Part shown: piece after piece, positions 51,429 to 58,925 of the stretch
Position numbering within the stretch: position 1 is the stretch's first letter
Layout: each line of letters opens with the position of its first letter
Origin: Chloroflexota bacterium
GTDB lineage: Bacteria > Chloroflexota > Dehalococcoidia > Lucifugimonadales > UBA2962
DNA length: 61,203 bases
Direction of reading: 5' to 3'
Assembly (NCBI GenBank): GCA_003228095.2
Contig: QGNM01000005.1
Span: 1 to 61,203, forward strand
The notes under the pieces: model-generated
What the model was told of the DNA's origin: nothing
The model's input: the letters and a program-made list of their open reading frames with translations, nothing else
Database searches by the model: none
Translations under genes and position numbers: made by a program

Positions 51429-52772
51429 GTGAGAGCAGTAGGTTACTTTAGAAAACAAAAAACTACAGAATGGTCTAATATTGATAATTCTTATGAACTA
51501 GAATTTTCTGAATATTGTGAAATCAATTATCATCAAAATATGGGATTTTATATTGATGAATTTGGATCTAAAAATCAATATAAAAAATTATTGACATTTT
51601 TAAACGATTCTAACTCAGAATACTTGATTCTAATACCTGAAGCTCGGCACCTAGGAACAGATTTAGAGAAATTAATACGTTCATTATTAGAAATCAGTTA
51701 TTCTGGTTCTAAGTCTCTATGTATGAGCGAAACTATTTCAGATCCAGTACAAAACGGATTCCAAACCTTAGGTATTAAAGGGGTGTCTAAAACCCGTAGC
51801 GATCGCGTCAAAGAATCCATGAGGGTTAAAGCAGCTCAAGGAAAGCCATTAGGACGACCACCGTATGGATATAAGATAAATGATGATGGGGATTTGGTTA
51901 TCGTACCAGAACAAGCCACAGTGGTTGAGTTGATCTATAGGTTATATACCCGAGATCAAATAGGATTCCGATTAATTGCACAGCATCTAAATGACCGTGA
52001 GATAACTACCCGAAAAGGTAAACCATGGAACGTTGTCACCGTGCGAAATATATTACGTAACATAGCATACACTGGTACATACAGTAGATTTGGACTTAGA
52101 AAATCTAAAGTGCATGAAGCAACAATTCAACCGAAAACATTCAAAGAAGCACAAGATATAACCATGTCTCGAAGACCAATCGGCCGAGTGTCCAAATCAG
52201 AGCCATTTCTATTGTCTGGCCTAGCTTACTGCGCCAATTGTGGAAATAAAATGATGGGTGTTACCAGGAAACAAAAATGGACGCGTAAAGATAATCGCAG
52301 GTCATTTGGAACGTATCGTTACTATCAGTGTCAATCTAGGCAGAATCAAGGAACGTGTAGTTATGTTACTTGGCGGGCTTCAATGCTGGAATCAACGGTT
52401 ATAGGCAGGCTATTTGAACAGGTGAGTGATTCTTACCGAGATGTTGAAATTCAATCTGTGGTTGTCAATGAAAAAGAACAACGTGTTAAAGAAATGAACA
52501 ATGACCGTGTCAAGACAGCTGAACGTAGGTTAATGTCTGGTTTAAGAAGGGTTGCAAATGCTGAAATACCTTTAGACTTGATGACAGAATATGTAGAAAA
52601 CCTTGATACCGCAAGAAGACTATCTAATAGGTCACGGCATAAGAAATCTGGGAAAGTATTCAATAAAATGACTGAAATTGAATCATTGAAATATGAAGAC
52701 AAAAGAGTGCTTCTACAGGAAAATATCAAAGGCATTACTGTTCACAAAGAAAGAGTAGAAGTTTCCTTTTGA
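51429..52772 (+). CDS. Large serine-recombinase homologue with degenerate catalytic domain
   Basis: 447 residues. Central recombinase domain (GRPPYGYKINDDGDLVI ... IAQHLNDREITTRKGKPWN ... VRNILRNIAYTG) and zinc beta-ribbon (CANCG...CQSRQNQGTC) are clear. The N-terminal resolvase domain is divergent: YFRKQK stands where YxRVS has the Ser nucleophile, and EARHLGTD replaces RLxR. No catalytic Ser or second Arg is evident, so strand exchange is doubtful. GTG start. It lies between a housekeeping gene and rnpB; no attachment site was seen. Confidence 0.82.
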   Translation: MRAVGYFRKQKTTEWSNIDNSYELEFSEYCEINYHQNMGFYIDEFGSKNQYKKLLTFLNDSNSEYLILIPEARHLGTDLEKLIRSLLEISYSGSKSLCMSETISDPVQNGFQTLGIKGVSKTRSDRVKESMRVKAAQGKPLGRPPYGYKINDDGDLVIVPEQATVVELIYRLYTRDQIGFRLIAQHLNDREITTRKGKPWNVVTVRNILRNIAYTGTYSRFGLRKSKVHEATIQPKTFKEAQDITMSRRPIGRVSKSEPFLLSGLAYCANCGNKMMGVTRKQKWTRKDNRRSFGTYRYYQCQSRQNQGTCSYVTWRASMLESTVIGRLFEQVSDSYRDVEIQSVVVNEKEQRVKEMNNDRVKTAERRLMSGLRRVANAEIPLDLMTEYVENLDTARRLSNRSRHKKSGKVFNKMTEIESLKYEDKRVLLQENIKGITVHKERVEVSF

Positions 52773-53349: not shown

Positions 53350-53426
53350 AGGAGCGTAGCTCAGTCTGGTAGAGCAATGGTCTCCAAAACCATCGGCCGC
53401 GGGTTCGAATCCTGCCGCTCCTGCCA
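53350..53426 (+). tRNA. tRNA-Trp (CCA)
   Basis: Acceptor aggagcg (53350-53356) pairs with cgctcct (53416-53422). Anticodon loop ctccaaa at 53382-53388, anticodon CCA 53384-53386. T-loop ttcgaat. Discriminator G53423, encoded CCA. Its GCCA end complements the T-box TGGC at 35135. Confidence 0.97.
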
Positions 53427-58503: not shown

Positions 58504-58902
58504 TTATTGAGTCAACGGCCAATCTTTAAACTCTTCTTTACCGCCACGAATGCTCCAGTCTGAGTCGATTGTTAATTGACTTGTTATTCCGCCACGAACA
58601 TTAAACTTCATAATTATGCGGATACGTTTTGGCGAGTAAATATTCATTAAATCATCATAGACAGTATTGATGATTCGTTCATACGAAATGTGTGTATTTC
58701 TAAATTGGTAAAAATATTGTTTTAGTGACTTTAATTCCACAACGTTTTTATTGGGATAAAATAATATATCAGCTGTTGCAAAGTCTGGTTGTTCCGATGC
58801 GCCGATAAACGTTATTTCATGCGCATGAAGTTTAACTTCATATGCATCATCTGTTGGGTTTTTGATGCTTTTTAATATGCTAGAGTCACTCCATGTATCC
58901 AA
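58504..58902 (-). CDS. QueF-fold (T-fold) protein lacking the catalytic Cys and His
   Basis: 132 residues matching single-domain QueF, the preQ0 nitrile reductase. Seen: QPDFATADILFYP (38-50), VELKSLKQYFYQFRN (55-69), Y74-E75 in the FHE position, and KFNVRGGI (99-106). In active QueF a Cys sits in TSLCP before the GQPDF block; here the stretch is TFIGASE with no Cys, one residue shorter. The family His next to the substrate Glu is Tyr74, while Glu75 and the QPD Asp remain. So binding of a pteridine-like or deazaguanine base may persist but not the known reduction. TTG start with a gaggtg site. Confidence 0.8.
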   Translation of the reverse strand: MDTWSDSSILKSIKNPTDDAYEVKLHAHEITFIGASEQPDFATADILFYPNKNVVELKSLKQYFYQFRNTHISYERIINTVYDDLMNIYSPKRIRIIMKFNVRGGITSQLTIDSDWSIRGGKEEFKDWPLTQ

Positions 58903-58925
58903 TAGTTCACCTCTTTAATTAAACT

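Follow-up and report, generated by a model that had tools for sequence, protein, structure and literature searches.

A Cys-less QueF-family protein in SAR202 bacteria, Bacteroidota and environmental phages: a candidate T-fold reductase for methylene-tetrahydrofolate

In QueF, the catalytic Cys55 forms a thioimide with preQ0, and Asp62 is the general acid. The criteria used to recognize the family are Cys55, Asp62, Glu97 and the QueF motif; Glu97 anchors the substrate and the QueF motif binds NADPH, and the QueF authors treated sequences without the catalytic Cys as non-QueF (PMC5372742). For 5-methyltetrahydrofolate (5-methyl-THF), the only routes named in PMC7857596 and PMC11094777 are MetF and the mycobacterial Mfr. 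All methylene-tetrahydropterin reductases described are (beta-alpha)8 barrels, and in them the C1 carrier is protonated to a 5-iminium cation that accepts the hydride; Mfr passes the hydride directly from NAD(P)H to methylene-H4F via the N5 iminium, without a flavin (PMC11094777). Our literature search found no paper tying QueF or the T-fold to methylene-THF reductase (MTHFR); preprints and most subscription papers were outside its reach, and an earlier description is possible.

Here, we analyzed a Cys-less QueF-family gene (X) in a window of 61,203 nucleotides, the whole stretch of DNA under study, from a genome (G000) whose near relatives are SAR202 MAGs. X lies on the minus strand, as do all the features of it given below, at 58504..58902; it encodes 132 aa from a TTG start, and a Shine-Dalgarno-like AAAGAGGTG (58908..58916) can be read directly from the sequence 5 bases before that start. 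It scored 79.8 bits against Pfam QueF (cut-off 27.3) and 98.7 bits against NCBIfam QueF-II (TIGR03139, cut-off 86.9), so the NCBI pipeline would label it preQ(1) synthase. The Pfam scan gave QueF and QueF_N only, and no PF02219 similarity was present in X.

Bacillus subtilis QueF (4fgc, 4f8b, 5udg) matched X with an E-value of about 1e-14 and ~33% identity. In the alignment, the Glu29-Asp40 loop (EITFIGASEQPD; 58783..58818) occupies the site of the catalytic Cys55: the TSLCP loop of QueF is TFIGASEQPD in X, with the Cys gone and one residue fewer. His96 of QueF corresponds to Tyr74, Glu97 –the substrate anchor– to Glu75, and Asp62 to Asp40; Tyr74 and Glu75 fall within SYER (residues 73-76; 58675..58686). 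The QueF motif E(S/L)K(S/A)hK (Glu78 in QueF), which binds NADPH in that enzyme, is intact as ELKSLK (residues 56-61; 58720..58737). The alignment bears out the original prediction, which had described the QueF blocks, the missing Cys, the change of His to Tyr74 and the retained Glu75 and Asp. It had overlooked the C-terminal motif IDSDWxxRGGxExFxDW (residues 112-128, ending in W128; 58519..58569), which is specific to the clade described below.

The catalytic position lacked Cys in all 72 aligned members of X, and the length of the loop was constant. Invariant residues in the 72 members were Glu29, Thr31, Phe32, Gly34, Pro39 and Asp40 around the loop, and Glu56, Lys58, Lys61, Arg68, Ser73-Tyr74-Glu75-Arg76, Asn79, Arg103-Gly-Gly (RGG, residues 103-105; 58588..58596), Ser108 and Asp113 elsewhere; Leu57 of the QueF motif was also listed as invariant. 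In a tree of 90 rows, X formed a monophyletic clade (96/95) apart from canonical QueF (99/99). The conserved clade that was to count as support for the original prediction, Cys-less and with its Glu and Asp kept, does exist, and the known thioimide chemistry is impossible for it. By the published criteria (PMC5372742), X is not QueF because the catalytic Cys is missing; it is a real, conserved, non-QueF family.

X was found in SAR202 MAGs, in Saprospiraceae/Flavobacteriales MAGs and in about 80 environmental phage contigs of IMG/VR, up to 289 kb long. Isolate phages and plasmids gave no match above 60% identity, and the annotated ones among their more distant matches were ordinary QueFs. A phylum-wide search of Chloroflexota (E 1e-20) returned mostly canonical QueF, from which X stood apart (247 bits vs. 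at most 90), and a phylum-wide draw of Bacteroidota had X in 2 of 395 genomes, only in the order already known. Two other departures from the QueF loop were seen in Chloroflexota. One genus carries a second Cys-less group (L016, L018, L019, L024 and L033, at about 1440-1900) with a TFKDP loop and SHERI, His-Glu being kept; the tree places this group next to X, though its branch is long, and no methionine neighbours were seen. The QueF of genome G017 (L040, 1447-1830, minus strand) reads FTCLAP, with Ala for the catalytic Cys, and its close relatives read FTCLCP.

The genome of the window has a second QueF that retains the Cys (FTAVCP); queC and queE, named from their own sequences, come immediately after it in a queF-queC-queE operon. 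This Cys-containing QueF (L002, 1306-1740) is very divergent and has the longest branch in the tree. The X gene of the window is under purifying selection, with dN/dS of about 0.11 and 0.075 against the sister copies in L003 and L005. Given the Cys-containing queF in the same genome and a dN/dS of about 0.1, X is not a decaying queF, which had been named as a way in which the original prediction could fall. A sequencing error was likewise ruled out by the 72 Cys-less relatives and the dN/dS values.

Sister SAR202 genomes carry X just after rpoC (L003, 8001-8390; L005, 2588-2977), in opposite relative orientations. Since X lies elsewhere in the window, the gene moves. The window also holds a serine recombinase of the XisF/Ccr type (51429-52772, plus strand) 0.6 kb before a tRNA-Trp (53350-53426), a possible trace of a mobile element. 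A defence role was considered and set aside, as neither X nor its neighbours had a PADLOC match.

At the structural level, the AlphaFold2 model built from the X alignment reached a pLDDT of 89.5 and a pTM of 0.85. X is predicted to have the small T-fold of unimodular QueF, with mixed strands and helices: the best PDB match of the model was unimodular QueF (Z 16.6, 127 residues at 2.8 A), followed by QueF-L (Z 14.2), FolE (GTP cyclohydrolase I) and FolB (dihydroneopterin aldolase, a pterin enzyme). The model and the profile matches thus agree with the membership in the QueF/T-fold group that had been proposed. Purine or pterin binding is the theme of the T-fold enzymes QueF, QueF-L, FolE and FolB, and a common fold with them by itself shows no function.

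In the bacterial loci L007 and L009, metH is split, and X separates its homocysteine-methyltransferase portion from the portion for pterin, B12 and activation. Elsewhere in bacteria, X lies between a cystathionine synthase/lyase-family gene (metB-type) and homoserine dehydrogenase, hom (L144, L146, L147), or divergent from a full metH (L139/L154, L149/L155). In the SAR202 genome G431, X ends one base before a gene resembling a methyl-THF:corrinoid/iron-sulfur-protein methyltransferase. The genome of the window has a homologue of that gene (45% identical) whose operon also encodes a corrinoid protein, homocysteine methyltransferase, MetV, MTHFR (MetF) and RACo; the copy of X in the window has no adjacent methionine genes. 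A SAR202 operon (L174, 5894-14848) combines homocysteine methyltransferase, two URO-D/MtaA-like proteins, Pterin_bind, a corrinoid protein, MetV, MTHFR and RACo, and is likely a corrinoid demethylation system.

In viral contigs, the genes near X were SAM synthetase (metK, 17 loci), MTA/SAH-nucleosidase-like (12), adenine-phosphoribosyltransferase-like (10), S-adenosylhomocysteine hydrolase (ahcY, 9), MetE (3) and MetH (1). Many of the ORFs in these SAM-cycle neighbourhoods overlap the phage X by a few bases. A metK, ahcY, metE, metH or nucleosidase gene lay at most two ORFs from X in 25 of 77 viral loci (the remaining 52 had no SAM-cycle neighbour), against a mean of 4.6 and a maximum of 11 in a random-ORF control; the viral loci are related, so that the effective number is smaller (5 of 28 representatives at 80% identity). 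Wherever a viral locus had any SAM-cycle gene, it was beside X (25/25) and never only further off. Together with the bacterial loci, they strongly support a role of X in the methionine/SAM cycle, with which, and not with queuosine, the gene is associated. Other neighbours were noted as well. In phage contigs, a DUF2452-like protein is often at or near X (L049, 10413-10868, and 14 other phage loci). In L115 (10393-11091), X is directly followed by a protein of the nucleoside phosphorylase superfamily whose domain carries a fused cysteine motif of the DUF5522 type. A small 4Fe-4S ferredoxin gene adjoins X on some phage contigs (L120, 10385-10621, and five other loci).

The step missing among these neighbours is the making of 5-methyl-THF, and we therefore tested for the presence of MTHFR, scored by PF02219, in 199 genomes of one Bacteroidota order (that of G304). 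X was present in 14 of them, and 10 of the 14 lacked PF02219 while all 10 had MetH; among the genomes with MetH and without X, 11 of 168 lacked PF02219. The p-values of this association (Fisher, 3.2e-8; 2.2e-6 after a rough collapse of the X-containing genomes with common neighbourhoods) overstate independence, because the genomes are related and the completeness of the Bacteroidota is not given. The 11 genomes with MetH and neither X nor MTHFR are possibly MAG gaps. The Saprospiraceae genomes G304 and G306 have X and no PF02219, and the SAR202 genome G431 (84% complete) gave no PF02219 match. Against a replacement of MTHFR, the two genes occur together in six Bacteroidota genomes (G601, G674, G689, G691, G305 and G307) and in SAR202 genomes of the window's genus, where the MTHFR is of the MetVF type and belongs to the corrinoid operon.

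The replacement is also positional. Relatives carry metF divergent from metH (L156, L157, L159, L160, L161); in G505 and G551, X occupies this divergent slot upstream of metH, and PF02219 was found nowhere in either genome. Among the phages, MTHFR was present in none of 50 X-phage records, and the three viral loci with MTHFR were all on contigs other than those with X.

From sequence and genomics, X is probably a flavin-free, NADPH-dependent 5,10-methylene-THF reductase with a T-fold that replaces MetF. We infer its substrate, cofactor, reaction direction and residue roles as follows. Glu75 would hold the pterin by its 2-amino-4-oxo-pyrimidine face, in the way that Glu97 anchors preQ0 in QueF. 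Asp40, derived from the QueF acid, or the invariant Tyr74 would give a proton, and the imidazolidine ring would open to the N5 iminium. NADPH bound on the ELKSLK motif would then pass one hydride to the iminium carbon, yielding 5-methyltetrahydrofolate. With a C=N+ cation as the acceptor, a nucleophilic Cys would be dispensable; in QueF, by contrast, the preQ0 nitrile has to be activated by the Cys. The loss of the Cys beside the invariant Gly34 could free room for a larger substrate. In cells, X may serve methionine synthase and the SAM cycle as a non-homologous replacement of MetF/MTHFR; in phages, it may keep SAM regeneration going with their own MetK, AhcY or nucleosidase, and MetE or MetH.

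We lean towards the wider view that 5-methyl-THF can be made by a new structure: a reductase of ~130 aa, flavin-free and NADPH-dependent, that would have derived from QueF by loss of the Cys. It would be carried by environmental phages, some with a portable SAM-regeneration cassette of MetK, AhcY and MetE, and would also occur in lineages of Bacteroidota and SAR202, of which several would have lost metF.

Other readings have to be weighed against a methylene-THF reductase. X could act at another point of the methionine/SAM cycle, where it might, for example, deliver methyl-folate to methionine synthase, protect that enzyme, or be a regulator; its neighbours MetH, MetE, MetK, AhcY and nucleosidase, and its occurrence with both MetE and MetH, would fit such a role. 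The loss of MTHFR and the replacement in the same slot indicate the reductase step instead, and the NADPH motif, the Asp and the Glu are invariant, which makes this reading unlikely. X could also reduce a different pterin, for instance by standing in for DHFR and turning dihydrofolate into tetrahydrofolate. This would likewise be an NADPH-dependent reduction of a pterin C=N bond, and a search of eight SAR202 genomes found no DHFR_1. However, that gap extends to a genome without X (G388, one of the eight), DHFR was kept in 9 of the 11 Bacteroidota genomes searched that have X and lack MTHFR, and the neighbours are methionine genes, so we consider a DHFR substitute improbable.

The original prediction had offered a binder of 7-deazaguanine or pterin that works as a sensor, carrier or different enzyme. 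The evidence points towards the pterin and the different enzyme, and an invariant NADPH motif is more to be expected of a reductase than of a sensor. The 7-deazaguanine part did not hold up: descent from QueF and the retained Glu anchor and Asp speak for preQ0 or preQ1 as ligand, but X has no association with queuosine genes in the face of a strong tie to methionine genes, only two of the 50 X-phage records held a QueC above the cut-off, one of them through a fragment of 48 residues, and the genome of the window has its separate Cys-containing queF. There is thus little chance that X acts on 7-deazaguanine. Modification of phage DNA with 7-deazaguanine was rejected on the same scarcity of QueC. 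Finally, X could be a preQ1 synthase with relocated chemistry, as automatic annotation would have it; the copy in the window, and also those in L139 and L114, score above the QueF-II equivalog cut-off. With the shortened loop, a Cys at the catalytic position in 0 of 72 members, and Cys-less sequences set outside the family by the QueF authors (PMC5372742), this is highly implausible.

If a methylene-THF reductase is correct, a T-fold enzyme fills the gap in genomes with MetH and without MTHFR, and phages gain a nearly complete methyl cycle. It would also mean that an enzyme for reducing nitriles can become one for reducing iminium ions through the loss of a single nucleophile. Moreover, automatic annotation would be corrected, as X genes pass or approach the NCBI cut-off for 'preQ(1) synthase'.

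Compared with known systems, X is closest to unimodular QueF (B. subtilis; TIGR03139, PF14489), with which it shares the predicted T-fold, the NADPH motif, the equivalents of Asp62 and Glu97, and RGG. It differs in lacking Cys55, in its invariant Gly34, in Tyr for His96, in the C-terminal IDSDW motif and in its methionine-cycle context. QueF-L archaeosine synthase (5jyx, 5k0p) is likewise a T-fold QueF paralogue with an altered reaction; unlike X, it has the Cys and the thioimide, and works on preQ0-tRNA and ammonia (PMC5485725). With MetF, the FAD-dependent MTHFR (PF02219, TIGR00676), X would share the reaction, and it fills the slot divergent from metH and the absence of that enzyme; MetF is a (beta-alpha)8-barrel flavin enzyme, whereas X is modelled as a T-fold and is unrelated. 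Mfr would be alike in the direct, flavin-free transfer of hydride from NAD(P)H to the N5 iminium, but it is a barrel and has been described only from mycobacteria (PMC11094777). Since the known reductases are all (beta-alpha)8 barrels, the T-fold of X would be a new fold for this activity.
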